Assembly: GCA_021325235.1 (NCBI GenBank)
Contig: JAJPHN010000044.1
Location: 186,001-250,000 of the forward strand
Reading direction: 5' to 3'
From: Terriglobia bacterium
GTDB lineage: Bacteria; Acidobacteriota; Terriglobia; Bryobacterales; Bryobacteraceae
Length of the DNA: 64,000 nt
Part shown: in pieces, positions 1,031-35,898 of the stretch
How positions within the stretch are numbered: position 1 is the first letter of the stretch
How the letters are laid out: every line of letters starts with the position of its first letter
Made by a program: the position numbers and the translations under genes
The notes under the pieces: generated by a model
Databases searched by the model: none
Told to the model about the DNA's origin: nothing
What the model saw: the letters and a program-made list of their open reading frames with translations, nothing else

Positions 1031-1065
1031 GCGGGTCGGCAGCCTTTCTCTCCTATTCTTATACT

Positions 1066-3112: not shown

Positions 3113-3149
3113 TCTCTGAGCCTACATCGCCACTCCGATAGACTGGAAT

Positions 3150-3944: not shown

Positions 3945-4972
3945 TGACCAGACAACAGGCAATCGATTTTTTCCGCAGCGACGACCTGGTCGGTATTGGC
4001 ATGGAAGCCGATGCCGTGCGCCGCAGGCTGCATCCGGATGGCGTAGTCAGCTACATCATCGATCGCAATATCAACTACACCAATTTCTGCACCGAGTACT
4101 GCAGCTTCTGCGCCTTCTATCGTCCCATGGGCCACAAAGAAGGCTACATTCTGCCCGATGAAGTCATCCTCGATAAGATCCAGGAGACGATCGACCTGGG
4201 CGGCACCGGTATTCTCATGCAGGGCGGCTTGCATCCCGATCTCAAGATTGAGTGGTACGAGAACCTGCTCCGAAAAATCAAGTCGCGCTTCGATATCTGG
4301 TGTCACTGCTTTTCTGCGCCGGAAATCGTCAACATCGCCGAAGTCAGCGGCCTCTCGCTGCACGACACGATCGCGCGCCTGCGCGACGCCGGGCTCGATT
4401 CCATTCCGGGCGGCGGCGCTGAGATTCTGGACGACGACGTTCGGCATCGTATCAGCCGTCTGAAATGTCATACGCAAGAGTGGATCGATGTGCACCGAAC
4501 CGCACATGCGCTCGGGATGCGCACCACCGCGACCATGATGTTCGGCACCGGCGAGACCATCGAGCAGCGGCTCAACCATTTCGAGATCGTGCGCCAGATT
4601 CAGGAAGACACCGGCGGCTTCACAGCATTCATTCCGTGGTTTTTTCAACGCGAGTATACCTCGCTCGGCCGCTTCGTGAAGCAAGAGGCGACGGCTGTTG
4701 AATACCTGAAGATGCTCGCGCTTTCACGCGTCTATCTAGATAACATCCTCAACGTTCAGGCTTCCTGGGTAACGCCCGGCCTGAAGGTGTGCCAGCTCGG
4801 CCTGCGCTTCGGCGGTAACGATGTCGGGAGCATCATGATCGAGGAGAACGTGGTCTCGGCAGCCGGCACGCACCATCGCGCCACTGAAGAAGAGCTGCGC
4901 CGCTTGATCCGCGACGCCGGGTTCATACCCAAGCAGCGCGATACGCTCTACCGCACGTATTTTCTAAATTAG
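3941..4972 (+). CDS. mqnC: Cyclic dehypoxanthinylfutalosine synthase MqnC (radical SAM)
   Basis: MqnC cyclises dehypoxanthinyl futalosine in menaquinone synthesis. The 4Fe-4S cluster motif CTEYCSFC (C50, C54, C57) follows the family opening VSYIIDRNINYTNFC. Other landmarks are ILMQGGLHPD, DSIPGGGAEIL and TTATMMFGTGE, all typical of the MqnC/MqnE/CofH group. The length of 343 residues and the IPGGGAEIL segment fit MqnC. The ATG at 3941 overlaps the mqnA stop; upstream extension would run inside mqnA. A symmetrical hairpin terminator follows directly. Confidence 0.95.
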   Translation: MMTRQQAIDFFRSDDLVGIGMEADAVRRRLHPDGVVSYIIDRNINYTNFCTEYCSFCAFYRPMGHKEGYILPDEVILDKIQETIDLGGTGILMQGGLHPDLKIEWYENLLRKIKSRFDIWCHCFSAPEIVNIAEVSGLSLHDTIARLRDAGLDSIPGGGAEILDDDVRHRISRLKCHTQEWIDVHRTAHALGMRTTATMMFGTGETIEQRLNHFEIVRQIQEDTGGFTAFIPWFFQREYTSLGRFVKQEATAVEYLKMLALSRVYLDNILNVQASWVTPGLKVCQLGLRFGGNDVGSIMIEENVVSAAGTHHRATEEELRRLIRDAGFIPKQRDTLYRTYFLN

Positions 4973-4978
4973 AGAAGC

Positions 4979-5010
4979 AAAAAAGGCAGGCCCGAAAGCC
5001 TGCCCTTCTT
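4979..5010. terminator. Bidirectional Rho-independent terminator
   Basis: A perfect 7-bp GC-rich stem (GGCAGGC at 4985-4991, GCCTGCC at 4998-5004) closes a CCGAAA loop. It is flanked by six A's on the left (4979-4984) and a T-rich tail on the right. It lies between the convergent mqnC and TPR-lipoprotein genes and can serve both, being stronger on the reverse strand where the tail is six uridines. Confidence 0.85.
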
Positions 5011-5032
5011 TGTCTTACGCTCCAGCTGATTC

Positions 5033-5866
5033 TTAACTCGTCTGCTGCTTGGCCGGACGCGCAGCCTTGATGCGCTTCATGTTGAGCGATTTCTCCAGCC
5101 AGTCGTCGGCTTCCTTCCAGAGTGCTTTTGCCTCCTCCGGACTATCAGCCAGAGCGGCCTTTTCGCGAAGGAGGAGGTTCACATATGACATTGCATCTTC
5201 GTTCTCTTTGTCGATGGCGAGCGCCTTCTTCAACTGATCGAGACCGCTGTCAATCGTTTTCCCATACTTGTCCTTCAGGTCCGCCCGGACTTTCTTGTCG
5301 GGCAACGGACCCGGATCGTTCGGTCCGGTCAGTTTCTCGGTGACGCGAGCCGTCTGGATGTCGCCCAGCGCGTCGTAGTAATCAATTACGCCCAGATAGT
5401 AGTACGCTTCGCCATCCTTCGGATTCACCTCGATGCGGCGCTCGTTCCACTTGCGCGCTTCTTCAAATGCTGCTTTGCGCTTGTCGGGCGGGGCAGAAGT
5501 GGCCGAGTTGTAGGCCATGCTGGCCATCGATGCCAGCGCCTGTTCGTTCGAGGGATCCTTCTGCAGAATCTTCTTGAACTCGGCCTGAGCCATGTCGTAG
5601 TTCTTCTTGTTGTCCGGCGAATCCGCGCCGGGAACCCATTGGATGAAGTACGACGTGGCCAGATACGCCTGGGCGTTGGTGTTGTTCGGATCGAGCCGCA
5701 CCGCTTCCTGGAAATGGCGCACGGCATCCGGGTACTTATTGTTCTTAAAGGCGATAACGCCCTGGTTCATCTGGTCGTTCGATTCAAGATGCGCGCAGCC
5801 GGATAAGAACAGCAAGCCCGAACCGAGAACAACCGGCAGAACGTTCGACTTTCGCATGATCGACAT
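5033..5866 (-). CDS. TPR-repeat lipoprotein
   Basis: This 277-residue protein begins with a signal peptide ending in a lipobox (LSGC, lipidated C24). Tetratricopeptide repeats follow, for example residues about 35-65 (GVIAFKNNKYPDAVRHFQEA) and further copies to about 250. TPR lipoproteins act as periplasmic scaffolds. It is the last gene of the reverse-strand block tonB-exbB-exbD-exbD (21 nt after the last exbD), so it may assist the TonB energiser or the envelope assembly it drives; that role is inferred from position only. The tail is basic and ends before a strong terminator. Confidence 0.85.
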   Translation of the reverse strand: MSIMRKSNVLPVVLGSGLLFLSGCAHLESNDQMNQGVIAFKNNKYPDAVRHFQEAVRLDPNNTNAQAYLATSYFIQWVPGADSPDNKKNYDMAQAEFKKILQKDPSNEQALASMASMAYNSATSAPPDKRKAAFEEARKWNERRIEVNPKDGEAYYYLGVIDYYDALGDIQTARVTEKLTGPNDPGPLPDKKVRADLKDKYGKTIDSGLDQLKKALAIDKENEDAMSYVNLLLREKAALADSPEEAKALWKEADDWLEKSLNMKRIKAARPAKQQTS

Positions 5867-5886
5867 GTGATTCGCTCCCCGAGAGG

Positions 5887-6315
5887 CTATTGGCCCGCTT
5901 CCACTTTCGGCGTCATGATGCCGACTTTGTCGAGTCCGGCGCCCTTGGCGTCGTCTACAGCCTGCGCCACATAGCGATAATCGACGTCGGGATCGCCCTT
6001 CACGAACACCACCTTGGTGGCGCGCGTTTTGAAGATGTCTTCCAGCCGGGCCTGCAGATCAGCCTCTTTGATGGGCTGCCCATTGATCTCCATGCTGGTG
6101 TCCTTCTTGATCTCGACCACCACGTTCGGGTCCTGATTCGGCGGAGGTGGAGGCGTATTGGGCGGCGGCGGTTGTGGAACAAGTGTGTCCAAACCGTGCG
6201 GCGTCAACGGCGTGATCACCATGAAGATGATCAGCAGCACCAGCAGCACATCGATGAGCGGCGTAACGTTGATATCGGATTTGGTTCCCCCGGAACCGCC
6301 AACTGCAAATGCCAT
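5887..6315 (-). CDS. exbD: ExbD/TolR-type biopolymer transport protein (second copy, proline-rich)
   Basis: ExbD proteins pair with ExbB in the inner membrane and use the proton gradient to energise TonB. This 142-residue copy has the family start SDINVTPLIDVLLVLLIIF, with the essential membrane aspartate at D22, one N-terminal membrane helix and a periplasmic C-terminal domain. Between them lies a linker rich in proline (about residues 48-61, PQPPPPNTPPPPPN), not usual for ExbD and reminiscent of TonB. It is 24 nt downstream of another exbD. Confidence 0.93.
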   Translation of the reverse strand: MAFAVGGSGGTKSDINVTPLIDVLLVLLIIFMVITPLTPHGLDTLVPQPPPPNTPPPPPNQDPNVVVEIKKDTSMEINGQPIKEADLQARLEDIFKTRATKVVFVKGDPDVDYRYVAQAVDDAKGAGLDKVGIMTPKVEAGQ

Positions 6316-6339
6316 TTGTGTTTTTCCTCCCGTCCTCTC

Positions 6340-6783
6340 TTACATCACCGAGCTGACGTGCCGTTTATCCTTCACGTCTTCGGTAATCAGGCCGATCTGA
6401 TCGACCCCAACCGTGCGCAGCGCATCCATTACGTCCGTCACGCTCGAAAACCGGGCGCGCGCATCGGCCTGGATGTAAACGGTTTTGTCCGACCGGTTCT
6501 GCTGCAGGTCTTTCACTTTGCCCGGCAGATCGTTGGCCTGCATCATCAGATTGCCGGGGCTGAGATAGATATGTCCGTCGCGGGTGATGGAAATCATCAC
6601 CGCGTCTTCGCGGTCCGCTTCCTGCATTTTGATGTCGTTGTGCGTCTTGACCTTGTTGACCTGGACGCCTTTCGACAACATAGGCGTGATGACCATGAAG
6701 ATGATCAGCAGCACGAGCATCACGTCCACCATGGGCGTGACGTTGATGTCGGAGACCACCGGCGGCGCTTTGGGCTGTTTCAT
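6340..6783 (-). CDS. exbD: ExbD/TolR-type biopolymer transport protein (first copy)
   Basis: The 147-residue protein has the ExbD signature SDINVTPMVDVMLVLLIIF with proton-relay aspartate D20, one membrane helix (about 18-36) and a periplasmic domain ending in a typical strand-helix pattern (VGVDQIGLITE). It lacks the proline linker of the second copy. Two exbD genes after one exbB is an arrangement known from several phyla, where the copies may form a mixed dimer. That is not shown by sequence alone. Confidence 0.93.
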   Translation of the reverse strand: MKQPKAPPVVSDINVTPMVDVMLVLLIIFMVITPMLSKGVQVNKVKTHNDIKMQEADREDAVMISITRDGHIYLSPGNLMMQANDLPGKVKDLQQNRSDKTVYIQADARARFSSVTDVMDALRTVGVDQIGLITEDVKDKRHVSSVM

Positions 6784-6904
6784 TTCAATGCTCCTTTAAT
6801 CGGAACGGGTGGCCGGCTTCCTGGTTTGGCGGAGAAGAGCGCCAGCCGCCCTCCTCCGCGTATCGATTCAACCGAGGTGAAACCTGCTCCGGACCGCTTC
6901 TGCT

Positions 6905-7639
6905 TTACTTGGCAACCGTGCGAGCTTGCGTCCGCTTCAAGAAGTAGTCGATCAGCTCGGAGCTCGAGTTGCCCATTTCTACGTCGAACGCTTCAATGCG
7001 GTTGGTGAAGTAGTTGAACACCCAGACCGCGGGAATCGCGACCAGAAGACCGAGAGCGGTGGTGATCAGCGCTTCGGCGATACCGCCGGCGACCGCGCCG
7101 AGACCGGTGGTCTTCGAAGTCGAAATCTGCTGGAACGCGTGCATGATGCCGACCACCGTTCCGAACAGTCCGACGAACGGAGCAGTGGAACCGATGGTGG
7201 CGAGGCTGCTGACGCCGCGCTTCAGTTCCGCGTGCACAATCGCTTCTGCACGTTCGAGCGCACGGCGCGAAGCTTCGATGTCCTCACCCGGAATGTCGCT
7301 GCTCAGCTGATGCGCTTTGAATTCCTGCAGACCGGCCACGACAACCTTGGCCAGATGGCTCTTGTTGAAGCGGTCGGCAATCTTGATGGCTTCGTCCAGT
7401 TTGCCTTCGCGGAGCGCACCGGCCACCGCGGGAGCAAACTGCCGCGATTGCTTGCGGGCTGCGTTATACGCAATCCAGCGATCGATCATGACGCCCAGCG
7501 ACCAGGCGGACATGATGAACAGAATCGCGACGACAACCTTCGCGATGATACTCATACTGCCCCAGATCGTGCGCAGGTCGAAGTTGACGGTTTCTTCCTG
7601 GAGCAACCAGAGTGCCCAGATTTGAAGTTGCAATAGCAT
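6905..7639 (-). CDS. exbB: ExbB/TolQ/MotA-type proton channel protein
   Basis: This 244-residue inner-membrane protein has three hydrophobic segments (about 30-52, 148-172 and 183-208). It carries the MotA/TolQ/ExbB signature around the second and third helices: LATIGSTAPFVGLFGTVVGI and GIAEALITTALGLLVAIPAV. It forms the proton channel that works with ExbD to energise TonB. It sits between tonB (44 nt upstream) and the two exbD genes on the same strand; the 121-nt gap to the first exbD shows no clear signal. TolQ is a possible alternative name, but the tonB neighbour favours ExbB. Confidence 0.92.
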   Translation of the reverse strand: MLLQLQIWALWLLQEETVNFDLRTIWGSMSIIAKVVVAILFIMSAWSLGVMIDRWIAYNAARKQSRQFAPAVAGALREGKLDEAIKIADRFNKSHLAKVVVAGLQEFKAHQLSSDIPGEDIEASRRALERAEAIVHAELKRGVSSLATIGSTAPFVGLFGTVVGIMHAFQQISTSKTTGLGAVAGGIAEALITTALGLLVAIPAVWVFNYFTNRIEAFDVEMGNSSSELIDYFLKRTQARTVAK

Positions 7640-7683
7640 GTTTCTCTCCTAAGTTGAATCGATAGTTTTCTGACAATCGGAAG

Positions 7684-8424
7684 TTACTGGCTCAGCGTGA
7701 AATTCACGATGATATCAGTAACGACATCCACTGGCTGACCATTGAGCATGGTCGGCTTGTACCGCCATTGCTCCACGGCTTCTTTCGCGGCATTCACCAG
7801 AAGCGGATGACCGCGTACAAGCTGCAAGTGTTCAATCCTGCCCTCTTTGTTGATGACGGCAGTAAACTCTACCGTGCCCTGCACGCGAGCCGATTTGGCC
7901 AGCGGCGGATACACCGGCTGTACTTTGTGGATCAGGTTGGCCTCGGCCACGTTGCCGCCGATGCGCACCGGACCCGAAGGAGCTTTGGGCTTGGGAGGCG
8001 GTGGAGGCGGCGCAGCGCTGGGCACACCGCCGAGGACGCCGCCGAGCACACCGCCGGCGGTGCCGCCGGCTTCGCCCGTTCCACCCACCACACCGACTCC
8101 GGCGTCGGGCGGAGGTGCGGCTTCTTCAATCTTGTTGATCTGCTTCGGAATCGCCTTCGGTGCGATCAGCTGGTTGGCGATGAACTGCTTCACCACCGGC
8201 TTCTGCTGCACGACTTTGGGTGCAGGCGGCGGCGGTGGCGGCGGTGGCGGCGGTGGCGGTGGCGCCACCAGCATGCTCTTCAACTGCGCCGTCGGCAGCG
8301 TCTGCGTGTAGATCAGCGGGATCAGAATCGCGATCACGATAATCGAGCACTGTATCAGCAACGAGAGCAGAATCGTTGCGGGCTTCTTGGTTTTCCCCGT
8401 GTTAGTGAATGTTTGCTCAAACAT
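7684..8424 (-). CDS. tonB: TonB energy transducer
   Basis: TonB couples the ExbB/ExbD motor to outer-membrane receptors. The 246-residue protein has one N-terminal membrane anchor (about 17-40), a run of about 13 prolines near residues 55-67, a glycine/proline periplasmic spacer, and a C-terminal TonB domain (about 165-246). The domain carries the family pattern VQPVYPPLAKSARVQGTVEF and ends in VVTDIIVNFTLSQ. The proline run is encoded by an almost pure GGC/GGT repeat on the plus strand (8224-8264), prone to slippage. A TonB-dependent receptor is encoded at 26.4 kb. Confidence 0.95.
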   Translation of the reverse strand: MFEQTFTNTGKTKKPATILLSLLIQCSIIVIAILIPLIYTQTLPTAQLKSMLVAPPPPPPPPPPPPPAPKVVQQKPVVKQFIANQLIAPKAIPKQINKIEEAAPPPDAGVGVVGGTGEAGGTAGGVLGGVLGGVPSAAPPPPPPKPKAPSGPVRIGGNVAEANLIHKVQPVYPPLAKSARVQGTVEFTAVINKEGRIEHLQLVRGHPLLVNAAKEAVEQWRYKPTMLNGQPVDVVTDIIVNFTLSQ

Positions 8425-8466
8425 CTTGTTTGCTCCCTGGGCTTTGCTCCCCTCCGGTGCGGCGCC

Positions 8467-9708
8467 TTACTTCGCGGTGCGCACCGCCTTTACGTTCTTC
8501 ACTGCGCTGGGCGGCTTGGAAACCGCTACCGCCGGGCGTCCCTTCTTGCGGTTCTCAGAGATGTTATGCCAGAACACCAGAATCGGGCTGGCGATAAAGA
8601 TCGATGAATAGGTTCCGATGATGATACCAACGACCAGCGCAAACGAAAATCCGTTCAGCACCTGGCCGCCGAATAAAAACAGCGAGAGCGCGGTCAGAAA
8701 CGTCAGCCCCGAGGTCAGCACCGTCCGGCTCAGCGTCTGGTTGATGCTCAGATTGACAATCTGCGGGAACGTTCCGCGCACACCGAGCTTCAGATTCTCG
8801 CGAATGCGGTCGAAGGTGACGATGGTATCGTTCATCGAGTAGCCGACCAGCGTGAGCAGCGCGGCGATCACGGTCAGGTCAATCTGTTTATTAAACAACG
8901 AGAAGAGTCCGATGGTAATGATCGTGTCGTGAAAGACAGCGATCACGGCCGCGACGCCGTAAATCCACTCGAAGCGGAACGCGATGTAAACCAGCATCGC
9001 CGCCAGCGCCAGCAGTACCACGTTGACCGCCTGCTGGCGGAGGTCAGCGCCGATTTTCGGCCCGACAAACTCGAAGCTGCGGATGGTGAAATTGCCGGCG
9101 AAACACTGCGCTTTGATAACGTTCAGCACTTGCGGCGTAACGCCCGGGACGGAGGAAAGTTCGTCGAGGTTCCGAACCAGGCCCGAGTGCGCATCGCGAT
9201 AGCCAGCGATGTTCTTAACGAGAGTCTGGAGCTGGTCGTCGGAGAGCGTAACGCCGGCTGCCGTCAGCGGGTCGCGCAGCCGGTCGGCAAGAGCAGTCTG
9301 GCCGGAGGTGTTGATATCGAGCTTGCCGTTCGCATTCGGATTGAACGCGGCGTTCAGAGTGGTGAGCATGTTGTTGCGCACCGTCTCGAGGCCGTGCTCG
9401 GCATTTCCGGCCGCTCCAGCATTCGCGCCGGTAGAGATTAAGACTTCCTGCGAACCTGCGTTGTTTACTTCCTGCACTTCGATCTCACCGGAGATTCGTT
9501 GGCGAAGCGCGGACCGTATGGCCTCCGCGTGCGGGCGGCTGATGAAATTGACATCCATGAGCGCTCCACCGGTAAAATCAATGCCGTACTTCGGGCCGCC
9601 TTTCACCCATAGACTGATCAGCCCAGCCGCAGTGAGCACCAGCGACAGGATGATGAACGGCCACTTCCTGCCCAGAAAGTCAAAGTTGGTTTGCTTGAAG
9701 ATTTCCAT
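8467..9708 (-). CDS. secF: Protein-export membrane protein SecF with extra periplasmic domain
   Basis: SecF works with SecD to help the Sec translocon release exported proteins using the proton gradient. The first helix (about 16-34) is followed by the family motif YGIDFTGGALMDV, and the C-terminal five-helix RND-like domain includes GYSMNDTIVTFDRIRENL. At 413 residues it is about 100 longer than usual. The excess lies at about 100-205, between the first periplasmic strands and the return motif FEFVGPKIGADLR. That insert contains NIAGYRDAHSG (167-177) and LDELSSVPGVTPQVL (181-195), which resemble the helix-hairpin-helix region of GspK-type pseudopilins. secD is 122 nt upstream on the same strand. 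Confidence 0.95.
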   Translation of the reverse strand: MEIFKQTNFDFLGRKWPFIILSLVLTAAGLISLWVKGGPKYGIDFTGGALMDVNFISRPHAEAIRSALRQRISGEIEVQEVNNAGSQEVLISTGANAGAAGNAEHGLETVRNNMLTTLNAAFNPNANGKLDINTSGQTALADRLRDPLTAAGVTLSDDQLQTLVKNIAGYRDAHSGLVRNLDELSSVPGVTPQVLNVIKAQCFAGNFTIRSFEFVGPKIGADLRQQAVNVVLLALAAMLVYIAFRFEWIYGVAAVIAVFHDTIITIGLFSLFNKQIDLTVIAALLTLVGYSMNDTIVTFDRIRENLKLGVRGTFPQIVNLSINQTLSRTVLTSGLTFLTALSLFLFGGQVLNGFSFALVVGIIIGTYSSIFIASPILVFWHNISENRKKGRPAVAVSKPPSAVKNVKAVRTAK

Positions 9709-9830
9709 CGAACCTTAATGGCAGGCATCTATAGGAGATAGACACCAGTCTGTTATAAATGTTCCCAATTCCGTGAAGAAGTTGTGGCCCCGCGCGGCCC
9801 TTTTTCGAGCGCTGGCGGGACCTTGCCTTC

Positions 9831-11450
9831 TCAAATGCTCAGCGCCTCAACCGGCTTGGCCCCCGAGAGCTCCCAATCGAAGATAAAGCGCGAGACAAAC
9901 ACCGCCGTAAACAGGTTCGCCACCAGGCCAATCACCAGCGTCACTGCGAAGCCCTTGACCGGGCCCGAGCCGAACAGAAACAGGATGGCGCAGGACACCA
10001 CCGTCGTGATGTGGGTGTCGATAATGGTCACAAAGGCCTTGCTGAAGCCGGCATCTACCGCGGCCCGGACCGCTTTGCCCGCCCGCAGCTCCTCTCGAAT
10101 GCGCTCGAAGATCAGCACATTGCTATCGACTGCCATACCGATGGTCAGCACGATGCCGGCAATACCGGGCAGAGTTAAAACTGCGTCGAAGTAAGCCAGG
10201 CAGGCGATCAGAATAACTGCGTTGAGAATCAGGGCCAGCGTGGCATTAATCCCGCTCCGCTTGTAATAAATCAGCATGGCGATGATGACCGCCAGGACGC
10301 CCGCAATACCCGCCGCAAATCCTTCGTGAATGGAATCGACTCCGAGCGATGGCCCAACCGTATTCTCCTGCTCGTAAACCACTCTCGCCGGCAGCGAACC
10401 CGCCTTCAGGTTCAGCGCTAAATCGCTTGCATCCTGCTGGCTGCCAATGTTGTTGATCACGCCGTTGTCGCTGATCTGTCCTTCGATGACCGGCGCGCTA
10501 AGCACTTTGCCGTCCAGCACGATGGCCGCCCGGTGGCCGATATTGGCTCCGGTGTATTTCGAGAAGCGCTCGGCTGCGTCCTGGCTCAGGACGAAGTTGG
10601 CTTCCCACATGCCGGACGCCTGCGCCTGCTGCGGTTTGGCATCGCGAATGTCCGTTCCGCGTACGACTGGCGTACGCGCTACCAGGTAGACCCCGCCCTC
10701 ACGCGAGCCGCCCTGCGAGGCGGAGCCGATCAGCTTCGTTCCGGGGGGTAAAATCCCGTTGTTCTGCGCCAGCGCCTCCTCTCGGCTGGCGTACGGTCCG
10801 CCCTTGACGTCGTACCACTCGAGTTGCGCGGCCGTCTGCAAAATCTGCTTCACGCGGGTCGGATCGTCCACGTTCGGCAGCTGAATCAGCAGTTCCGCAT
10901 CGGCATCTTCCCGCCGCTGCTGCACGCTCGCCTCGCTTAAGCCGAGCGCGTTCACCTTCTTATCCAGCGTGTTCTTGGTCTGGGCCAGTACCCGCTGCCA
11001 CATGGTGAGTGCTTCGGAAGGCTTCATCGTGAGCCGGTAATCGGTCGCGTTCACCGGCGTCATGAGATAATTCGCGAACTTCTCGTTGACCACGCCGCGC
11101 AGCGTGCCGCCCTGGGTCGAAGGAACGCCGCGGATCACGATAGCGGCCTTGGTTGCCGATTTCAGGTCCTTTGCTTCATCGACGTCAACCGAGGAGTAGG
11201 TCAGGTTCGCCTGGTTCGCGGCCGTTTTCATCCGGTCAGCGTCCAGCGCCACCTGGGCGTTGAAAGCGTCCTGCTCCTGCACCTGCACCACCAGGTACGT
11301 GCCGCCCGTGAGATCGAGACCGAGGTGAATATTTTTGTTCCAGTTCTCCACCAGCTGCGCCTTGCTGGTCGGGACGCCGATGATGCCGTAAATACAAACC
11401 AGGATCACCGCGATAATGAACAGGAACTTGTAGCGTAAATTGCGTGTCAT
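9831..11450 (-). CDS. secD: Protein-export membrane protein SecD
   Basis: The 539-residue SecD has a first membrane helix (about 6-25), the motif HLGLDLTGGTYLVVQVQ, a large periplasmic P1 region, and a C-terminal block of five membrane helices. That block holds the SecD signature GIVLTIGMAVDSNVLIFERIREEL. The end contains GFAVTLVIGLVANLFTAVFVSR as in other SecD proteins. It lies between yajC (30 nt upstream) and secF, the standard order of the SecDF-YajC complex. Confidence 0.96.
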   Translation of the reverse strand: MTRNLRYKFLFIIAVILVCIYGIIGVPTSKAQLVENWNKNIHLGLDLTGGTYLVVQVQEQDAFNAQVALDADRMKTAANQANLTYSSVDVDEAKDLKSATKAAIVIRGVPSTQGGTLRGVVNEKFANYLMTPVNATDYRLTMKPSEALTMWQRVLAQTKNTLDKKVNALGLSEASVQQRREDADAELLIQLPNVDDPTRVKQILQTAAQLEWYDVKGGPYASREEALAQNNGILPPGTKLIGSASQGGSREGGVYLVARTPVVRGTDIRDAKPQQAQASGMWEANFVLSQDAAERFSKYTGANIGHRAAIVLDGKVLSAPVIEGQISDNGVINNIGSQQDASDLALNLKAGSLPARVVYEQENTVGPSLGVDSIHEGFAAGIAGVLAVIIAMLIYYKRSGINATLALILNAVILIACLAYFDAVLTLPGIAGIVLTIGMAVDSNVLIFERIREELRAGKAVRAAVDAGFSKAFVTIIDTHITTVVSCAILFLFGSGPVKGFAVTLVIGLVANLFTAVFVSRFIFDWELSGAKPVEALSI

Positions 11451-14828: not shown

Positions 14829-16157
14829 ATGCCGAGTGCCCGCGATCTGCCTTCCGTCGATGAAGTCCTGCGCACAATCGGGATCATCGATGGTGTTCCA
14901 CGGCGGCTGATCGCGAATGAAATCCGCCGGGTGCTCGCCGAGCGGCGCGAGGTCTTGCAAAAAGGCGAAGAACCCGATTCGCTCCCCATTCAGGAACAAG
15001 TTCGTCTGCGAATAAGGGCGCTGCTCGAGCCAAGCCTGCGGCGTGTGATCAATGCCACCGGCGTGGTGCTGCACACCAATCTCGGCCGTGCGCCCTTACC
15101 CGAGTTTCAGCCGCTCACCGGATATACAAACCTCGAATACGACATCGAAAGCGGGAAACGCGGCAAACGTGACTCGCATATCGCCCGGCTGCTCGAGGCG
15201 CTTCTGAAGCGGCCGGGGATCGTCGTCAATAACAACGCGGCGGCGGTCTATCTCGTGCTTCGCGAACTGGCCAAGGGCGGGGAAGTGATCGTTTCGCGCG
15301 GCGAACTGATCGAGATCGGGGATGGTTTTCGTATTCCCGATATCATGCTCGAATCGGGCGCGCTACTGCGGGAAGTGGGCACGACGAATCGCACGCGCAT
15401 TGAAGATTACGAGCAGGCGATGTCCGAAAGGACGCGGCTCATCCTGCGCGTGCATCGCTCGAATTTTCACCTGAGCGGCTTTACTGAGCGGCCATCGTTG
15501 CAGCAGCTGGCGCAACTGGGCAGGAAAAGCGGTATTCCCGTCTACGAAGATCTGGGCAGCGGGTGTCTAACGGATCCGCGTAGAGCGGGTATCGAGGAAC
15601 CCGTCGTTGGCGAGAGTTTAAAGGCGGGCGTCAACCTGGTTTCGTTTAGCGGCGACAAGCTTTTGGGCGGTCCGCAGGCTGGCATTATCGCGGGAGATGG
15701 GGCGCTCGTCGCGCGCATTCGGCGCAACCCGATGTATCGCGCCTTTCGTGTCGACAAGCTTATCCTGCAGTCGCTCGAAACGACTCTGCATTTCGCACTG
15801 CAAGAAGATTGGGGGCGTATTCCGGCATTGCGCATGATCATGACGCCGGTAAGCGAGCTTCGGGCGCGCGCCGAACGGCTTTGTGCGCAGCTCGAATCCT
15901 CTATCTATTGCGTACGCGAAACCGCCTCGCTGATCGGAGGTGGCTCGACGCCCGAGCAGACGTTGCCGACCTGTGTGATTGAAGCGAAGGTGCCGAATGC
16001 GGCGCAATTCGAGCGGCACCTGCGAGCCGCTTCGACTCCGGTAATCGCGCGAGTCGAGCAAGGAGCCGTACGGATCGACTTGCGTACCGTATTAGAAGAA
16101 GAAGAAACGGAGCTTGTGGCTGCCCTTAAGGGAGCAGAGGCGTGCCTGGAGCGTTGA
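14829..16157 (+). CDS. selA: L-seryl-tRNA(Sec) selenium transferase SelA
   Basis: SelA is the PLP enzyme that converts seryl-tRNA(Sec) to selenocysteyl-tRNA(Sec) with selenophosphate. The 442-residue protein shows the family blocks INATGVVLHTNLGRAPL, NNNAAAVYLVL, VHRSNFHLSGF and EDLGSGCL. The PLP-lysine motif SFSGDKLLGGPQAG places the Schiff-base lysine at about K277. selB, selD and a tRNA-Sec gene are not in this window, and no selenoprotein gene was recognised. The start ATG is 3 nt after the uvrA stop, and another gene follows 3 nt after its own stop, so selA lies inside an unusual three-gene transcript. Confidence 0.93.
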   Translation: MPSARDLPSVDEVLRTIGIIDGVPRRLIANEIRRVLAERREVLQKGEEPDSLPIQEQVRLRIRALLEPSLRRVINATGVVLHTNLGRAPLPEFQPLTGYTNLEYDIESGKRGKRDSHIARLLEALLKRPGIVVNNNAAAVYLVLRELAKGGEVIVSRGELIEIGDGFRIPDIMLESGALLREVGTTNRTRIEDYEQAMSERTRLILRVHRSNFHLSGFTERPSLQQLAQLGRKSGIPVYEDLGSGCLTDPRRAGIEEPVVGESLKAGVNLVSFSGDKLLGGPQAGIIAGDGALVARIRRNPMYRAFRVDKLILQSLETTLHFALQEDWGRIPALRMIMTPVSELRARAERLCAQLESSIYCVRETASLIGGGSTPEQTLPTCVIEAKVPNAAQFERHLRAASTPVIARVEQGAVRIDLRTVLEEEETELVAALKGAEACLER

Positions 16158-20002: not shown

Positions 20003-21964
20003 CTACATATAGACGGGTTGCTCAATACCAAGCACGTGAAGCACGGCGGCGAGCTGGTCGCGCACAAATGTTGTGAGCCAGAGTAACGCCGAGCGCCGGG
20101 CAAGGTCCGGCTCAGCGATAACCGAGTGCTCGTGATAGAAATTGTTGAACGCCTGCGCGAGCTGAAAGGCGTATTTCGCTACGTGTGCGGGCTCGCCGGA
20201 GGCAATCGCGCGCTCGAGCAGGGAGCCGCTTTTCGAGGCCAGCAGCAGTAATTGCCAGAGTGTCTCGTCGGCGAAACACTGCGCCAGCAGATCGCCTGAA
20301 AGCGCCGCGGCAAAATCGGGTGGCGGTCCGAAGCGTTCTTCGACTTTACGGAGGATGTTGCCGGCGCGCACGGCCGCGTACTGAACGTAAGGACCGGTTT
20401 CTCCTTCAAAACTGAGCGCCTCATGAAAATCGAAGGCGATGACGGAGTTGCGTGTGAATTTGAGCATGAAATAGCGCAGCGCGCCAACCGCAATCTGTTC
20501 AGCAACTCGCTTACGTTCGTCGGCTGGCGCGTCCGGGTGCCGATCTTCGACTTCGCACAGGGCGTTTTCGATGAGTTTGTCGATCAGATCGTCGGCTTTG
20601 ACGCCCAGCCCTTTGCGGCCGGAGACTTCAACGTAGGGGCGGCGCTTGTCTTCTTCGGAGAGCGCAATCCCGAGCTCGAGGCAGGTGCGGGGTGAGAGCG
20701 CGACCATCTCGTAGGAGAAGTGCGTGGAAGCATCGGCCTGAGCGTTGTAGTCGAGCGCGCGCAGCCCGGCTACGACGACATCCTGCAGATACGACTGGCG
20801 CGAATCGATCACGTTGAAGACTTGTTTGGCGCGACCGAAAGAAGGCGCGCCGCTCTCTGAGAGGTGATCGGTCGTGACCCATACCTGCGAGCCATCCGGA
20901 TACGCGGACCAGCGCCGGTAAAAGAAATCCTTACCGAGCAGACCGAATTTCCAGAGCTGATAGGCGATGTCTTTACCGACGTAGGTGACCGTGCCGTTGG
21001 AGCGCACGATAATCTTGTCGTCATCCTCGGAGCGTTCGCCTTCACGGAAGGCCGTCGCGGGCATCACCCAGCAGTCCTTGTTCTTGCCTTGCTCTTCGAA
21101 GTAGATTGCCTTTCGTTCTTTGAGAAGTTCGAAGGCAGTTGCCCAGAACTTCAGATGCAGGATTTCGCTTTCGCGCGGCAGGAGCTGATACGTAACCCCG
21201 ATGCGGAACATGGTGGCGAGATGCAGACGCACAATCGCATCGGCCACGAGTGTTCCGAGTTCGGCGAGTGTGCCTTCGCCCGCTTCGATGGCATGCAGCG
21301 TGTCGCCTCGCCAGGCGAGAGCGGCTGGTTCCTGCTGGTAATGCGATGAGACGCGCGCGTAGAGATCCCAGCACAAGTAATCGAAGCGAACAGCCGGATC
21401 TTCGATCAGCGCGCGCACCTCGGCTGGGGTTTTCTTTTCGAGAAAGTGAAAGCCGGCGACAACGTCGGCGACCTGAACGCCGGTGTTATCGATGTAATTC
21501 TGAACTTCGACCTCTCGCCCCCGCTCGCGCAGCATACGGACGAAGGTGTCTCCCAGAATCGCGTTGCGCAGGTGGCCAATATGGGCGGCCTTGTTGGGGT
21601 TGATGTTGGTGTGCTCGACGACGATCTTGCCCGGAACAGGAGCCGGTCCGCCTCTGCTGGCCGCGAAGAGTGACTGTGCGTAAGCAGCGCGGTCAAGCCG
21701 TACGTTTATGTAACCGTTTCCGGCGATCTCAAATGACGAAACACCGGCGATTGCATCCAATCCGGCGGCGAGCTCTTCGGCGATCCGGCGCGGCGGACGC
21801 TTGAGCTGGCGTGCAAGCTGGAAGGCTACGGGAATGGCCAGTTCGCCGAATGAAGCCTGCTTGGGCTGCTCGAGCGAAACGTCAAGAGTCAGGTCAAAAC
21901 GCTCGCGTAAGCGGCGCTGAATGGCAGTGCTGATTGCGCTTTCAATCTCCTGGAACACTGCCAT
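20003..21964 (-). CDS. argS: Arginyl-tRNA synthetase
   Basis: ArgS charges tRNA-Arg. The 653-residue protein has the N-terminal Add-1 domain (about 1-110), the class I HIGH motif in NPNKAAHIGHLRNAILGD (HIGH at 128-131), and the ArgS substitute for KMSKS in SGRKGLGVKADDL. A DALR anticodon-binding domain closes the chain (YVQYAAVRAGNIL, then a helical tail). It starts 24 nt after the collagen-like gene on the same strand and may have its own promoter or depend on read-through. Confidence 0.96.
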   Translation of the reverse strand: MAVFQEIESAISTAIQRRLRERFDLTLDVSLEQPKQASFGELAIPVAFQLARQLKRPPRRIAEELAAGLDAIAGVSSFEIAGNGYINVRLDRAAYAQSLFAASRGGPAPVPGKIVVEHTNINPNKAAHIGHLRNAILGDTFVRMLRERGREVEVQNYIDNTGVQVADVVAGFHFLEKKTPAEVRALIEDPAVRFDYLCWDLYARVSSHYQQEPAALAWRGDTLHAIEAGEGTLAELGTLVADAIVRLHLATMFRIGVTYQLLPRESEILHLKFWATAFELLKERKAIYFEEQGKNKDCWVMPATAFREGERSEDDDKIIVRSNGTVTYVGKDIAYQLWKFGLLGKDFFYRRWSAYPDGSQVWVTTDHLSESGAPSFGRAKQVFNVIDSRQSYLQDVVVAGLRALDYNAQADASTHFSYEMVALSPRTCLELGIALSEEDKRRPYVEVSGRKGLGVKADDLIDKLIENALCEVEDRHPDAPADERKRVAEQIAVGALRYFMLKFTRNSVIAFDFHEALSFEGETGPYVQYAAVRAGNILRKVEERFGPPPDFAAALSGDLLAQCFADETLWQLLLLASKSGSLLERAIASGEPAHVAKYAFQLAQAFNNFYHEHSVIAEPDLARRSALLWLTTFVRDQLAAVLHVLGIEQPVYM

Positions 21965-21988
21965 TCAGTATGGCGGATCGTCCTGCGC

Positions 21989-24900
21989 TTACATGGTTCC
22001 GATGACCGTGAGATTGGTAGTCCCCGAGCCGCTTGCGGTTGAGTTCTGCAGGCCCCAGGCGATCTTTGTCGGATTGCCGGAGGTGAAGAACGTTGCAGCC
22101 GTTACGGAGCTGTATCGGGAGCAGTTATCGTAATCGGTGCAGACATTTATCGTCAGCGTGGTGCCGTCGTTGACAAGTTGTACATACTGGACCCCGCCCA
22201 GGCCGCTTGGGAACGGAGCAATGTTCTGCTGCGTAGCGGAGTAGCTGCCCGCCATGCTGAAGGTCGCCATCCGGCACCCTGCGCTCGTGCCGAAGGATGT
22301 ATTGCCGGTACCGCAGTTCATGCCCTGGAAACCGGTTGTACCGTCGGTCCATCCGAAAAAGATCTGCCGGTAATTGAGCGTATCGTCGAGCAGCGGCAGC
22401 TTGACAGGCAGGGTGACAGTGTAGGGAGTCGCCGGTGCTGCGAAATAGCGCATGGTCAGACTACTGGAGCCCGCGGCCGGAGCGCTGTCGAGTTCATAGC
22501 CGTTCGTGTTGGTGGAAGTGACGGTGCTGCTGGCGCCCGATGTTGTGACGCTCAGCTTGCCGGCCGGAGTGATCGGCCGGCCGCCGTAGTAGTAGGTCCA
22601 GGTATTGGTGGCGGTGCACAGGGCGCGATCGAACAAGCCGCTGATCACGATGTACAGCGTCCCGGCCGTACAGGTCGATGGCACGTTGGCATAAGTGCCG
22701 TAAAGGACAGTTCCTGCCGGACCTTGGGGGCCGGTTGCTCCCGTGGGGCCTTGTGGCCCTGTGGGTCCGACGAGCGAAGTGCCGCTGCTGGGCCAGGCTC
22801 CGGAGGCTTTCGGACCGTAGAGCGTGCTGGTGGAAGTGTTCAGGTAGAAGTCGCCGTTCTGGCCGAGTGAGCTGGAGGGCGTGGAGGTGCCGTTCCAGAT
22901 GGTATTGCCGTTCGTGCCGGCAGCACCCGTTGGGCCTGCTGGTCCTGTCGCGCCAGTTGGCCCGGTTGCACCGGTCGCTCCGGTGGGACCCTGTGGACCG
23001 GTAGGTCCGATGAGCGATGTACCGCTGCTGGGCCAGGCTCCGGAGGCTTTCGGGCCATAGAGCGTGTTGGTGGAGGTGTTCAGGTAGAAGTCGCCGTTCT
23101 GGCCGAGTGAGCTGGAGGGCGTGGAGGTGCCGTTCCAGATGGTATTGCCGTTCGTGCCGGCAGCACCCGTTGGGCCTGTTGGTCCTGTCGCGCCAGTTGG
23201 CCCGGTTGCACCGGTCGCTCCAGTTGGGCCTTGTGGACCGGTAGGTCCGATGAGCGATGTACCGCTGCTGGGCCAGGCTCCGGAGGCTTTCGGGCCATAG
23301 AGCGTGCTGGTGGAAGTGTTCAGGTAGAAGTCGCCGTTCTGGCCGAGTGAGCTGGAGGGCGTAGAGGTGCCATTCCAGATGGTATTGCCGTTCGTGCCAG
23401 CAGCACCCGTTGGGCCTGTCGCTCCGGTGGGACCCTGTGGACCGGTGGGTCCGACGAGCGATGTACCGCTGCTAGGCCAGGCTCCGGAAGCTTTCGGACC
23501 GTAGAGCGTGTTGGTGGAGGTGTTCAGGTAGAAGTCGCCGTTCTGGCCGAGCGAGTTGGAGGGCGTGGAGGTGCCGTTCCAGATAGTATTGCCGTTCGTG
23601 CCAGCAGCACCTGTTGCACCCGTTGGTCCTGTGGGCCCGGTTGCACCCGTCGCGCCGGTTGGTCCGACGAGCGAGGTGCCCGTCCCGGGCCAAGTGCCGG
23701 TGGCTTTCGGTCCGTAGAGTACGTGCGTCGACGTATTCAGATAAAAATCGCCGTTCTGGCCGAGCGTACTCGCCGGCGTAGAGGTTCCGTTCCAGATCGT
23801 GTTGCCATTCGTACCTGCAGCGCCAGTGGGTCCGACGAGTGACACACCTGTGCCGGGCCACGCGCCCGAGGCTTTCGGGCCGTAGAGCGTGTTGGTAGAC
23901 GTATTCAGATAAAAATCACCGTTCTGGCCGAGCGTGCTGGCGGGCGTAGAGGTTCCGTTCCAGATCGTGTTGCCGTTTGTGCCGGGGACGCCCGTAGCAC
24001 CTGTTGGTCCCGTCGGGCCTTGTGGACCCGTGGGTCCGACGAGCGACGTACCACTGCTGGGCCATGTGCCGGAGGCTTTCGGGCCGTAGAGCGTATTGGT
24101 AGACGTGTTCAGATAAAAGTCGCCATTCTGGCCGAGCGTACTCGCCGGCGTAGACGTTCCGTTCCAGATCGTGTTGCCGTTTGTCCCGGCCGGGCCCTGC
24201 GGACCCGTTGCACCGGTGCTTCCGGTTGGACCCTGCGGGCCTGCTGCACCAGTGGCTCCTGTGGGACCTTGTGGCCCGGTTGCGCCAGTCGGACCCTGCG
24301 GACCAATGAGCGAGACACCCGTGCCAGGCCAGGCACCCGAGGCTTTCGGGCCGTAGAGCGTGTTGGTAGAAGTGTTCAGGTAGAAATCCCCGTTCTGGCC
24401 GAGCGTGCTCGCTGGGGTCGATGTTCCGCTCCAGATCGTGTTGCCGTTGGTACCGGCTGGCCCCTGCGGACCGGTTGATCCCGCTGGACCGGTCGCGCCT
24501 TGCGGCCCCGGAACTCCTGTCGGACCCTGCGGACCCGTCGCTCCCTGTGCTCCAGTCGCGCCTGCTGGACCGGCTGGCCCCTGCGGACCAATCAGCGCAA
24601 CGCCGCTCGAAGGCCAGGACCCGTTCGCCTTTGGACCGTAGACTTTCTCGGCTGCCGTGTCGAGATAGAAGTCGCCGTTTGCGCCAACGGATGCGGGCGG
24701 CGCCCCTGTTCCATTCCAGATCGTGTTCCCGTTCGCGCCGGCTGGTCCCTGCGGACCGGCGGGACCCTGCGGCCCCTGAATGGTGGAAATCGTGGCGAGC
24801 GTGTTCGCCAGTAACTGATCGGTGTATGTCTTCGCCGCTGACTGTGCATTCGCAGCCGCGCCCAACGGGTCGTATGTGCTGTTGAGCGAACCGTATTTCA

Positions 24901-25459
24901 ATCCGGTCGGCTGGGTCGGATCCGTTTCCAGAACCAGCCCGGGGGTGGTCGGCGCGGGCAACCGCACCACGTTTATTCCGTCGGATGTGGCAAGATCGCC
25001 TTTCATCGACGGCGGAGCGGAATTTACGATGGTCGTGGTCGTTACCACCACGTCAGCGATGTTCTCCGTGGCGGTGGTGTCCGGGACAGCCCAGTTTTCG
25101 GTGTAGGTCGGTATGGGGCCGTTGTCGCCGATCAGATGATATTCGACGGTGTAGCGAAACGGAAACGTCGCAGTTGCGGTGGGCTCGAGCTGGATCGAGA
25201 AACTGCCGTTCACAAGAGGCACTTTGAGCGTATTCGGCGCTACGGGCCGGTCGGTACTCGAGGTAAAGCGAGGCCAGTTGATGACCAGGTACGAGCCGGG
25301 CTTTGGCGTGCTGCCGGTCGCGGTATAGATGGTATCGGCCACGCGCGTCAGTGCGGCCAGAGTGAAGGGAAGCGCGAGCAGGGCAAACAGAGTCTTGCCC
25401 AAAGGGAAGCCGCAGCGGCGGCGGCCGTGTGAGCTGGATCGAGTAGTCGGCACGCGCAC
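21989..25459 (-). CDS. Large secreted collagen-like (Gly-X-Y) repeat protein with nine modules
   Basis: The 1156-residue protein starts at a GTG with a basic, then hydrophobic N-terminus (about 1-42) that looks like a signal peptide. An N-terminal domain (about 45-220) ends in a short coiled segment. Collagen-like Gly-X-Y stretches ([13 protein letters not shown] and similar) then alternate nine times with a conserved module of about 48 residues, recognisable by [24 protein letters not shown] and LYGPKASG. A final domain of about 230 residues (from [12 protein letters not shown]) contains several cysteines and resembles a beta-rich trimeric head. Bacterial collagen-like proteins are trimeric surface fibres; the head-and-stalk layout also recalls phage tail fibres. 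Ligand and attachment are unknown, and there is no LPXTG or lipobox. Confidence 0.85.
22780..24790 (-). repeat. Nine tandem DNA repeats inside the collagen-like gene
   Basis: A core ending in the GNTIW codons recurs near 22893, 23133, 23373, 23577, 23790, 23956, 24161, 24430 and 24715. Spacing varies from about 170 to 290 bases, always in frame because the number of Gly-X-Y triplets changes. The units nearest the C-terminal end (22.8-23.4 kb) are almost identical and spaced 240 bases apart, suggesting recent duplication. The unit nearest the signal peptide is the most diverged. Confidence 0.9.
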
Positions 25460-25605
25460 ACTGTAGCCGCGCGGAAGGCCGGATTTGGCGGGTGCGAGAT
25501 GGCCGGCTTACCCGAGCCGCTGCTGACAAGTCCTTGCCTTTTCCGCATTTACGCCCAGCCGAAGTCCTTGCCGAAAAAGTGATGAACTGTTGTGACCGAA
25601 CTGGA

Positions 25606-26394
25606 CTAGGGTCGTGCGGATAGCAGAATGCGGCGCAGCAGATCGTCACTCAGATCGGGCGGGTACTTTCCGTCGATAAAGACCGACGATCCATCGCGCT
25701 TCACCTGAAGCACTTCATAAAGCCGCGCCTCGCCGGGATCTTTTGCGATTGCGGAGAGCCTGGCGAACCCGATTCCGGCGCGGAGGGCGACATCCACACG
25801 CTCGGAACCCTCGGTGGAGAAGCAATCGATGCGGGCATGCAAATTCAAACCCGATTGAGCCTCGAGACCGACAGCCGTGCGCCGGACATGACCGCGGAAA
25901 TTCGCCAGAAGGGACGCGTATTCGGAGGGCAGGTGCAGATCTTCGACTGGCAGACCACGAAGGAGAATGCGGATCTGATCGGCATCGGCCAGCGATGCGA
26001 GTGCCCCGGAAAGCTCTTCGGGCAGATTGCCGCCTCCGCTCCTGGCAAGCTCCTGCGAGCGCCGCACCAGCGCGGGATCGCCGCTGAGCCGAACCGGTTC
26101 GCCCGGCGCTTTCTGTTGAGCAATGAGAACGCCCTTGCCATTCCACACCAGCAGCACGCGATCCGCATCGCTGGCTGGGAGCGCTCCTCCCAACGTGGTT
26201 TGATTGCGATGAAAGAATGCGGTCTGCCGGAGCTTTGCCGCTTCGATATCCGCAACCAGGAGCGCATCGGGCGAGATGTACTTCTGGAATGCTGGATCCA
26301 GGTGCGCTCCCGCAACCCGGTTCGGGCCGCATGCGGCGCTTGCGAACACCAGCGCGAGCAGTGTGCCCAGGCTTCGAGTGCCATAATTGGTCAT
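25606..26394 (-). CDS. Putative lipoprotein of unknown function
   Basis: I do not recognise a family. From the ATG at 26394 the 262-residue product begins with a signal peptide ending in a lipobox-like ASAAC (C about 21). A soluble region follows with patterns such as SPDALLVADIEAAKLRQT and VLLVWNGKGVLIAQQ, and the C-terminal half resembles a repeated alpha/beta unit. A TTG nine bases earlier is possible but less likely. It is divergent from, and its start just overlaps, the longest reading of the TonB-dependent receptor gene. Its job is unknown. Confidence 0.75.
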   Translation of the reverse strand: MTNYGTRSLGTLLALVFASAACGPNRVAGAHLDPAFQKYISPDALLVADIEAAKLRQTAFFHRNQTTLGGALPASDADRVLLVWNGKGVLIAQQKAPGEPVRLSGDPALVRRSQELARSGGGNLPEELSGALASLADADQIRILLRGLPVEDLHLPSEYASLLANFRGHVRRTAVGLEAQSGLNLHARIDCFSTEGSERVDVALRAGIGFARLSAIAKDPGEARLYEVLQVKRDGSSVFIDGKYPPDLSDDLLRRILLSARP

Positions 26395-28390
26395 CGCCAG
26401 CAATCCTCAGCATACGAGGCCACAGCTTTGGAGCTGTGCCCTCTCACAGGTTTCCGTTCACCGGACGATTTCGCTCTGGGTGCTGCTTCTCACGCCGGTT
26501 TTTGCTTTTGGACAAACGGGCCCGAACAACTCCGATGCGGGTACGCCAGCCGTTCCGCCGCTCAAAACAACTGTGACGGTTAGTTCTGCCGTCGCCAACG
26601 AGGTCCCTACCTCGATCGTCGTCCTGAACACGGAAGAGTTGCAGTTGATTCCGGGTATTGAGACAGACGACCGGCTTCGGCAGATCCCAGGGTTCAGCTT
26701 GTTTCGGCGCAGCTCAGGGCTGGTGGCGAATCCGACCACGCAGGGCGTATCGCTGCGCGCCACGGGTTCCTCAGGAGCGAGCCGGACCCTGATCCTCTGG
26801 GATGGCTTTCCGATCAACGATCCCTTTGGCGGCTGGGTGTACTGGGATCGTATCGATCCTGATTACATTGGCGAAGTCGATGTGAACCGGGGCGCGGCAA
26901 CCAGCGTATTCGGCGATCGGGCGATGGGCGGGACGATTTCGCTCTTTTCACCGCCGGAGCAGAATCAGCATCTGGTGGCCGATGTGATGGCGGGCAACGA
27001 GGATACGATGGATGCAGCGGCGGGATATTCCAACCTGTGGGGACTCTGGGGATTATCGCTCCACTCGCGCGCGCTCACGACAGATGGCTACTACATCACG
27101 CCGGAGCCAGTGCGCGGAAGCGTTGATACGAAAGCGAACGTGCGCTTTGCAACGGGCGATATGCGTCTTGACTACCTGGGGATCACCAACCGGCTTTCGC
27201 TGCACTTCGACGCGCTGGCGGAAGAGCGCCAGAACGGCACGCGGCTGACGCACAACTCGACCGGACTCGGGCTGCTGGGACTGAATTACACGCATTCCTG
27301 GTCGAACGATCAGATTTCGTTTCTCGGCTTTCACAGCGAAGAGCAGTTTCACAGCACCTATTCGAGTGTTTCGCTGAACCGCGATCACGAGACGCTGACC
27401 TCCCGGCAGACAGTGCCCGTGCAGGACACGGGAGGTGCTCTCTACTGGCAGCATCATGCACACAGCTGGCACACGATCGCCGGAGCCGATACGGACGACA
27501 CGCATGGCGTCAGTAACGATTATTCTTACAGTGCGCACAAACTCACCCAGAGCGGCGGAACTCTGCTCGGGCACGGACTGTTCGGGCAAGGCGATGTCAG
27601 TTTTGGACGCGTGCGTTTGTTTGCGGGGATCCGGCACCAGTTCACCGGCCTGCGCGGGGAAACCTTTGTCAGTCCGAACGGCGGAATCGCAGTTGGCCTC
27701 AAGCGGTTCCGGCTGCGAGCTTCCGGGTATCGCAGCTTTCGATCCCCGACACTGAATGAGCTCTATCGCAGTTTTCGCGTGGGCAATGCGCTTACGCTGG
27801 CCAACTCCGATCTTGTGCCGGAAGGACTGGTCGGCGTGGAAACAGGATTCGACTGGAACACCGAAACAAGCGCGGTCGCGTTCACACTGTTCCGCAACGA
27901 GCTCAACAACCTGATCGATAACGCCACGATCAGCATCACTCCGACGCTGATCCTGCGGCAACGCGAGAACTTCCCCAGCGCGCTTTCGCGCGGTCTTGAA
28001 TTCAACGTGAATCATCGCTGGCAGCACTGGCGCGCGGAAGCCGGATATATGTACGCCGATGCACGACTTGCGAGCGGTCAACGGATTCCCGAAGTACCAA
28101 AACAGCAGGGAACAGCACAGCTTGTTTTCAGTGCCGGCAAGACGCTGATCGCCGGCGGCATTCGCAGCTATAGCCTGGTTTTTGATGACGACTTGAACCA
28201 GTTCAAACTGCCCGGCTATGCTTCGTTGCAGCTTTCCGCCCAGCAACGGCTGACACGGCGCCTTTCGGCAGTTGCCTCGATCGATAATTTGCTGGATCGC
28301 ACCTATCTGGTCGCGTTGACGCCTTCCCCAAACACCGGCTCGCCGCGCTTGTGGCGGGTTGGTCTGCGTTGGAGCGGTTCTATTAAGTAG
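26387..28390 (+). CDS. TonB-dependent outer-membrane receptor
   Basis: The 667-residue protein shows a plug domain with a TonB-box-like stretch (TTVTVSSAV, about 60-68). The plug motifs follow: EVPTSIVVLNTEELQLIPG, SLRATGSSGASRTLILWDGFPIND, and IGEVDVNRGAATSVFGDRAMGGTI (split). A beta-barrel with alternating aromatic strands ends in LLDRTYLVAL...RLWRVGLRWSGS. It resembles BtuB/siderophore-type receptors, but the substrate cannot be read and no cobalamin riboswitch was seen upstream. The start is uncertain: the TTG at 26387 is the only canonical start before the signal segment LWVLLLTPVFAFGQ and overlaps the divergent gene by 8 nt. Confidence 0.92.
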   Translation: MVIASNPQHTRPQLWSCALSQVSVHRTISLWVLLLTPVFAFGQTGPNNSDAGTPAVPPLKTTVTVSSAVANEVPTSIVVLNTEELQLIPGIETDDRLRQIPGFSLFRRSSGLVANPTTQGVSLRATGSSGASRTLILWDGFPINDPFGGWVYWDRIDPDYIGEVDVNRGAATSVFGDRAMGGTISLFSPPEQNQHLVADVMAGNEDTMDAAAGYSNLWGLWGLSLHSRALTTDGYYITPEPVRGSVDTKANVRFATGDMRLDYLGITNRLSLHFDALAEERQNGTRLTHNSTGLGLLGLNYTHSWSNDQISFLGFHSEEQFHSTYSSVSLNRDHETLTSRQTVPVQDTGGALYWQHHAHSWHTIAGADTDDTHGVSNDYSYSAHKLTQSGGTLLGHGLFGQGDVSFGRVRLFAGIRHQFTGLRGETFVSPNGGIAVGLKRFRLRASGYRSFRSPTLNELYRSFRVGNALTLANSDLVPEGLVGVETGFDWNTETSAVAFTLFRNELNNLIDNATISITPTLILRQRENFPSALSRGLEFNVNHRWQHWRAEAGYMYADARLASGQRIPEVPKQQGTAQLVFSAGKTLIAGGIRSYSLVFDDDLNQFKLPGYASLQLSAQQRLTRRLSAVASIDNLLDRTYLVALTPSPNTGSPRLWRVGLRWSGSIK

Positions 28391-35804: not shown

Positions 35805-35898
<94 letters not shown>

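Follow-up and report, generated by a model that had tools for sequence, protein, structure and literature searches.

Phage receptor-binding fibres, which are made in the cytoplasm, and exported bacterial adhesins are usually treated apart. In the available part of their description, EPclA and EPclB, the collagen-like side-tail fibres of E. coli O157:H7 prophages, carry an N-terminal domain, a predicted helical or coiled-coil region, collagen and a C-terminal head in that order, together with the PfN (PF08400) and PfC (PF06820) domains; their collagen differs in length typically by multiples of three, and in EPclB two collagen stretches are separated by a non-collagen insert (PMC3368898). The Scl1/Scl2, Lcl, BclA and PclA adhesins are collagen-like proteins with non-collagen ends, according to the part of PMC8968730 at hand. 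Here we describe a gene of an acidobacterium (Terriglobia bacterium, Bryobacterales), located in a 64,000-nucleotide stretch of contig JAJPHN010000044.1 (the window), whose product has the domain order of the EPcl fibres and, like the adhesins, non-collagen ends, and has neither PfN nor PfC (Pfam at E up to 1). We think it fairly probable that it is a Sec-exported, presumably trimeric, collagen-like fibre of the bacterium made from phage tail-fibre parts. It links the two kinds of protein. Within one bacterial order, phage and exported settings alike contain this head, this module and the collagen stalk.

The gene is a single open reading frame with a GTG start. Its features are given below, with module boundaries set as GNTIW...SL[IV], and the basis of each in brackets.

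21989..25459, minus strand: collagen-like fibre gene, 1156 aa (ORF, sequence, Pfam)
25352..25459, minus: signal-peptide-like N-terminus, residues ~1-36, cleavage site not clear-cut (sequence, home-made rule, inference)
24980..25345, minus: N-terminal domain (profile relatives in 206/237 family genomes)
24782..24868, minus: predicted helix, residues 198-226, possible coiled coil, just ahead of the first collagen stretch (structure model)
24731..24775, minus: collagen stretch ahead of module 1, 15 aa (sequence)
24590..24730, minus: module 1, diverged (sequence and structure model)
24446..24589, minus: collagen stretch between modules 1 and 2, 48 aa (sequence)
24305..24445, minus: module 2 (sequence)
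24179..24304, minus: collagen stretch between modules 2 and 3, 42 aa (sequence)
24038..24178, minus: module 3 (sequence)
23975..24037, minus: collagen stretch between modules 3 and 4, 21 aa (sequence)
23834..23974, minus: module 4 (sequence)
23807..23833, minus: collagen stretch between modules 4 and 5, 9 aa (sequence)
23666..23806, minus: module 5 (sequence)
23594..23665, minus: collagen stretch between modules 5 and 6, 24 aa (sequence)
23453..23593, minus: module 6 (sequence)
23390..23452, minus: collagen stretch between modules 6 and 7, 21 aa (sequence)
23249..23389, minus: module 7 (sequence)
23150..23248, minus: collagen stretch between modules 7 and 8, 33 aa (sequence)
23009..23149, minus: module 8 (sequence)
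22910..23008, minus: collagen stretch between modules 8 and 9, 33 aa (sequence)
22769..22909, minus: module 9 (sequence)
22731..23419, no strand: 240-base tandem period over modules 7-9 (Tandem Repeats Finder)
22712..22768, minus: last collagen stretch, 19 aa (sequence)
21992..22711, minus: C-terminal head, 240 aa, six Cys, predicted lectin-like beta-sandwich (sequence and structure model)

A sequence-only reading of this DNA had described nine modules of roughly 48 residues alternating with unequal Gly-X-Y stretches, framed by a signal peptide, an N-terminal domain and a cysteine-bearing head. This architecture is indeed present, each module being exactly 47 aa by our definition and the N-terminus being signal-peptide-like. 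The collagen assignment was equally sound, with a Pfam Collagen (PF01391) match over nine stretches (E 2.7e-38); all ten Gly-X-Y stretches have Gly at every third position and not one charged residue among their 265. The head cysteines are residues 930, 948, 1049, 1062, 1107 and 1113, and the sole further Cys of the protein is residue 16. In a single-chain model of residues 36-300 (overall pTM 0.30) the N-terminal domain was poorly predicted, modelling indicated the helix ahead of the collagen, and module 1 was predicted as a self-contained small beta fold (pLDDT 95-97 for the block of residues 246-285, ~84 at the module end). Against solved structures the best match of the module (E 0.019) was to short propeller-blade proteins and established no relative, and Foldseek with the N-terminal domain and module model gave nothing usable (best E 0.85). 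A promoter scan of 21800-25800 found none.

A profile of the module retrieved 28 loci in genome contigs from many phyla and 85 relatives in viral contigs, 80 of which were kept, and a single module used as query retrieved 30 phage records, in several of which the annotation reads tail fibre or minor tail protein. This supports the likeness to phage tail fibre repeats suspected from the sequence. In the bacterial family it is present in 15 of 237 genomes. Across 111 non-redundant, non-orthologous proteins, none cut at the 5' end and some perhaps cut at the 3' end, the module count ranged from 1 to 9, with 44 proteins having one and another 44 having two; the nine of the window protein are the maximum. 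Outside the window, the closest match to every one of modules 2-9 is a module either of a phage contig of the same assembly (C39, see below) or of L101, a locus of the same genus where the module sits in a baseplate-type protein with the baseplate N-terminal domain PF18352 (Gp138).

The closest relative of the head, 52% identical and with three matching cysteine pairs, is the head encoded by gene 10 of C39, in a tail cassette. At E up to 0.001 it was found in six of the 237 family genomes, two of these being marginal (one match, in G158, spans only 49 residues, mostly collagen, and the other, in G236, a part containing a stop), and in none of the 16 other genomes of the genus, some of which are only 55-80% complete. 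Three head homologues match the phage family PHROG 19068 (E 4.7e-9 to 3e-4), as does the end of a fibre in another family genome (L231, E 1.7e-13) that is without a signal peptide and directly follows the gene for central tail fibre J; the window head gave no match to this profile at E up to 1, nor did the head of viral locus L210 match any named phage record. The model of the head (pTM 0.72, mean pLDDT 67.5, built from 3 sequences) suggests a lectin-like beta-sandwich. Near the top of its VIA-align results were beta-sandwiches of GH43 xylosidases (160 residues aligned at rmsd 3.8, Z 10.9) and galectins (126 aligned at rmsd 3.2, Z up to 9.8); Foldseek returned nothing at E 0.001 (best E 1.5e-3), and the head profile reached E 0.47 at best against the PDB. 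The cysteine hairpin of the head was also considered as a variant of the module, and hhalign did not support this (probability 7.8%). Judged by their relatives, head and modules are phage-tail parts, and those relatives that come nearest are proteins of tail cassettes in the same assembly or genus.

The N-terminal domain has other affinities. The 206 family genomes with relatives often have them in proteins of ~440 residues (e.g., L072, L078, L087), and in the five such proteins that we viewed the domain is preceded by what looks by eye like a signal peptide. Thirteen homologues from family genomes, taken irrespective of their individual contexts, share 34-44% identity with it, and those of viral contigs L163 and L145 28-29%. 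It is closest to signal-bearing proteins spread across the bacterial family. Pfam gave no convincing family, and the PDB a single weak match (9cod, E 0.044). The window protein itself is positive by our home-made signal-peptide rule, albeit with a cleavage site that is not textbook, and no membrane anchor or sorting signal was identified in it; its sequence suggests Sec export.

At the locus, argS begins 24 bases past the stop codon of the gene, and in eight relatives of the genus argS and the upstream neighbour (a 265-residue protein) share one contig with no collagen gene between them. A ferredoxin gene lies no more than 1.5 kb from argS in 11 genomes of the genus, directly adjoining it in nine of these, and with the G035 copy as query, nine ferredoxin copies aligned over 100-114 of the 114 residues show 85-91% identity to it. 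The ferredoxin was found (E up to 0.001) in 14 of the 17 genus genomes (among them G035, the source of the query, and G038, where the match is only weak) and not in G037, G039 or the genome of the window, which is 95.7% complete; the usual place of the ferredoxin beside argS is therefore taken, in this region of the window (20003-26403), by the collagen gene. The window also contains a selA gene (selenium transferase, 14829-16157) and a tRNA-Ser gene (35805-35898). A search of the genome for Peptidase_S78 as a prophage marker found none.

This setting bears on the possibility that the gene encodes an orphan tail fibre of a decayed prophage, or the fibre of a tailocin whose other genes lie elsewhere, and that its product assembles in the cytoplasm without being exported. 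Its head and modules are of the phage-tail type, and the order of its domains parallels that of the E. coli prophage fibres, as far as the accessible portion of PMC3368898 describes them. However, no phage family was found among the 16 other window ORFs scanned with Pfam, which are housekeeping, transport or unnamed genes, one being without any family; the N-terminus is signal-peptide-like, the N-terminal domain is common to signal-bearing proteins of the family, and the pooled pN/pS of modules 2-9 is low (0.14). We consider a fibre of either kind unlikely.

The phage side of the comparison is best seen in C39, a 43.9 kb contig of the same assembly whose gene list, as we read it, includes terminase, portal, sheath, tape measure and integrase. 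Its baseplate families were confirmed by PHROGs, and a 9336-base stretch of IMG/VR contig L129 is 100% identical to it. C39 is tied to this genome by assembly only, and with a contamination of 4.77% mis-binning is possible. The product of its gene 10, 762 residues long, starts like a signal peptide and contains collagen and two modules besides the head. By the home-made rule, on which our signal-peptide calls rest, 32 module ORFs of genome loci have a signal, 11 do not and 3 are truncated (the window gene and C39 are counted here, and one protein a few times over). Unlike the window protein, module ORFs of viral contigs mostly start without a recognisable signal (70 of 84, against 11 with one and 3 truncated). 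Unexpectedly, six fibre or spike genes that are signal-bearing by this rule stand near a tail gene of known PHROG family:

C39, signal-bearing fibre gene: neighbour baseplate (PHROG)
L136, signal-bearing fibre/spike gene: neighbour distal tail protein (PHROG)
L139, signal-bearing fibre/spike gene: neighbour central tail fibre J (PHROG)
L190, signal-bearing fibre/spike gene: neighbour tail sheath (PHROG)
L220, fibre/spike gene 7799-10168: between tape measure and distal tail protein (PHROG)
L221, fibre/spike gene 5470-7767: between tape measure and distal tail protein (PHROG)

The last two loci are prophage-like and from the genus of the window, and contain no match to module or head; the L220 protein has a pectate-lyase-like domain, which suggests a tail spike. 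In L136, five consecutive genes (1021-7719) upstream of the distal tail protein gene seem by eye to be signal-bearing, one of them via an internal start. Neighbours in L135, L143, L145 and L163 gave no informative PHROG match. Other ORFs served as controls. On the nine viral loci with a signal-bearing module ORF the rule flagged 14 of 37 of them, and on all other viral loci 27 of 372; on C39 it flagged two of 48 ORFs, gene 10 and an internal start in the presumed tape measure, and in L220 and L221 also the central tail fibre (hub) genes, probably wrongly. A cysteine pair in the module was associated with signal peptides in viral contigs (6/8 vs 2/63, Fisher 5e-6), a result confounded by relatedness, for which repeated and 5'-truncated loci were dropped and rule calls entered by hand, the doubtful L208 being taken as signal-bearing and L133 and L138, both of which may have an upstream signal, as signal-less. 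Among genome loci there was no such association (6/30 with, 3/17 without), which counts against the export reading. No title or abstract among the literature matches listed (in several cases the best 10-20 of up to 165 papers, with few subscription journals) dealt with signal peptides in tail fibres of acidobacterial phages or with this protein. A survey of diversity-generating retroelements counted the absence of a signal peptide in favour of phage origin, as far as the part of it available to us states (PMC6199706); this would be an unsafe criterion if tail clusters do contain signal-bearing fibre genes.

Such genes also raise the possibility of a product of lysogenic conversion or phage defence, in which an exported copy of a phage receptor-binding head occupies or masks the receptors of the host and blocks adsorption of related phages. 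In lambda, lom is positioned in the tail region. It offers a precedent, being a phage-encoded outer-membrane protein linked to adhesion in the accessible part of PMC3342100. The head shared with the C39 gene would fit a mask as well, and so would the fibre genes with signals that related phages have in their tail clusters. However, a stalk of nine beads exceeds what a mask needs, and no prophage was seen around the gene, so this too seems improbable to us.

How the stalk reached its length can be read from the array. Near-identical modules by the head, a 240-base period and a diverged first module had been noted from the sequence, and all three are borne out. Modules 6-9 are 91-97% identical to each other in DNA, while module 1 is 60-64% identical to the others (pN/pS 0.32-0.41, pS 0.65-0.78). 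Tandem Repeats Finder reported at 22731-23419 a period of 240 bases in 2.9 copies with 94% matches and a score of 1238, far above chance. The 240-base units starting from modules 7 and 8 are 96% identical; those of modules 8 and 9 are just 75% identical owing to the shorter spacer that follows module 9, their modules alone being 95% identical. Identity declines weakly with distance along the array (Mantel p 0.032), and the mean identity among modules of the same protein (0.83) is the highest of the 24 listed proteins with at least three modules. A FastTree phylogeny of 249 modules places 16 tips under the common ancestor of modules 2-9 (support 0.96), which are not a strict clade, because these tips include modules of C39, L101 and others. 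The tandem period and the identities of modules and units support the proposed expansion by unit duplication near the head, and we regard the array as a clean, if ordinary, case of lengthening of a collagen stalk. Although 240-base repeats at ~95% identity are difficult for short reads, an assembly artefact is unlikely, and a real copy number other than nine has very little chance, because the copies are imperfect, with spacers of different lengths, everything is in frame, the longest exact repeat is 103 bases and the locus sits in a contig of 298 kb.

The simplest account of these data is a beaded fibre borne by the host, exported, built of tail-fibre parts and ending in an adhesive, lectin-like head. 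In the gene, an N-terminal domain that is common in the family is joined with a head and a module array such as phages of the same genus carry. The predicted signal peptide would take the chain out of the cytoplasm, the N-terminal domain would remain on the cell side, and the helix ahead of the collagen could nucleate a trimer. Nine beads of 47 residues, with short uncharged triple helices between them, would form the stalk, and the head, probably stabilised by disulphides, may bind glycan on a surface or on a neighbouring cell. Module-plus-collagen units duplicated in tandem have lengthened the stalk under purifying selection, the latest of them near the head. More tentatively, and with rather less confidence than for the exported fibre itself, the phage and bacterial genes can be read together. 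Temperate phages of Bryobacterales may encode receptor-binding fibres or spikes with Sec signals within their tail clusters, the products of which would either be added to the virion after leaving the cytoplasm or cover the surface of the lysogen. In that case the window gene would be a chromosomal, lengthened version of an exported tail fibre, with fibre parts moving in both directions between virions and the host surface.

Compared with described systems, the collagen stalk is of a known kind, and what is new is the mosaic, together with the export-like signals that the home-made rule finds inside tail clusters. From the EPcl fibres, which are located in prophages, the window protein differs by its signal-peptide-like N-terminus, its nine inserts and the lack of any prophage seen around its gene. 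With the adhesins it falls below the NCBIfam cut-offs (192/325 bits for Scl2, 118/500 for Lcl and 111/400 for Scl1). Tail proteins of Burkholderia, Dinoroseobacter, Erwinia, Sinorhizobium and Streptomyces phages have the same 47-residue module, often beside Gly-X-Y, but usually one or two copies of it instead of nine. Gene 10 of C39 resembles the window protein in its signal-peptide-like start, collagen, modules and head with matching cysteine pairs, whereas its N-terminal domain is another one (unmatched by the search with the window domain), its modules are two instead of nine, and it stands inside a phage tail cassette. Candidatus Solibacter usitatus belongs to the Solibacteraceae, which are listed under Bryobacterales. 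Earlier work on it, in the part available, lists paralogues of the phage tail collar as a group that shows signs of positive selection (PMC3174227), which would fit a lineage that keeps tail-type genes.
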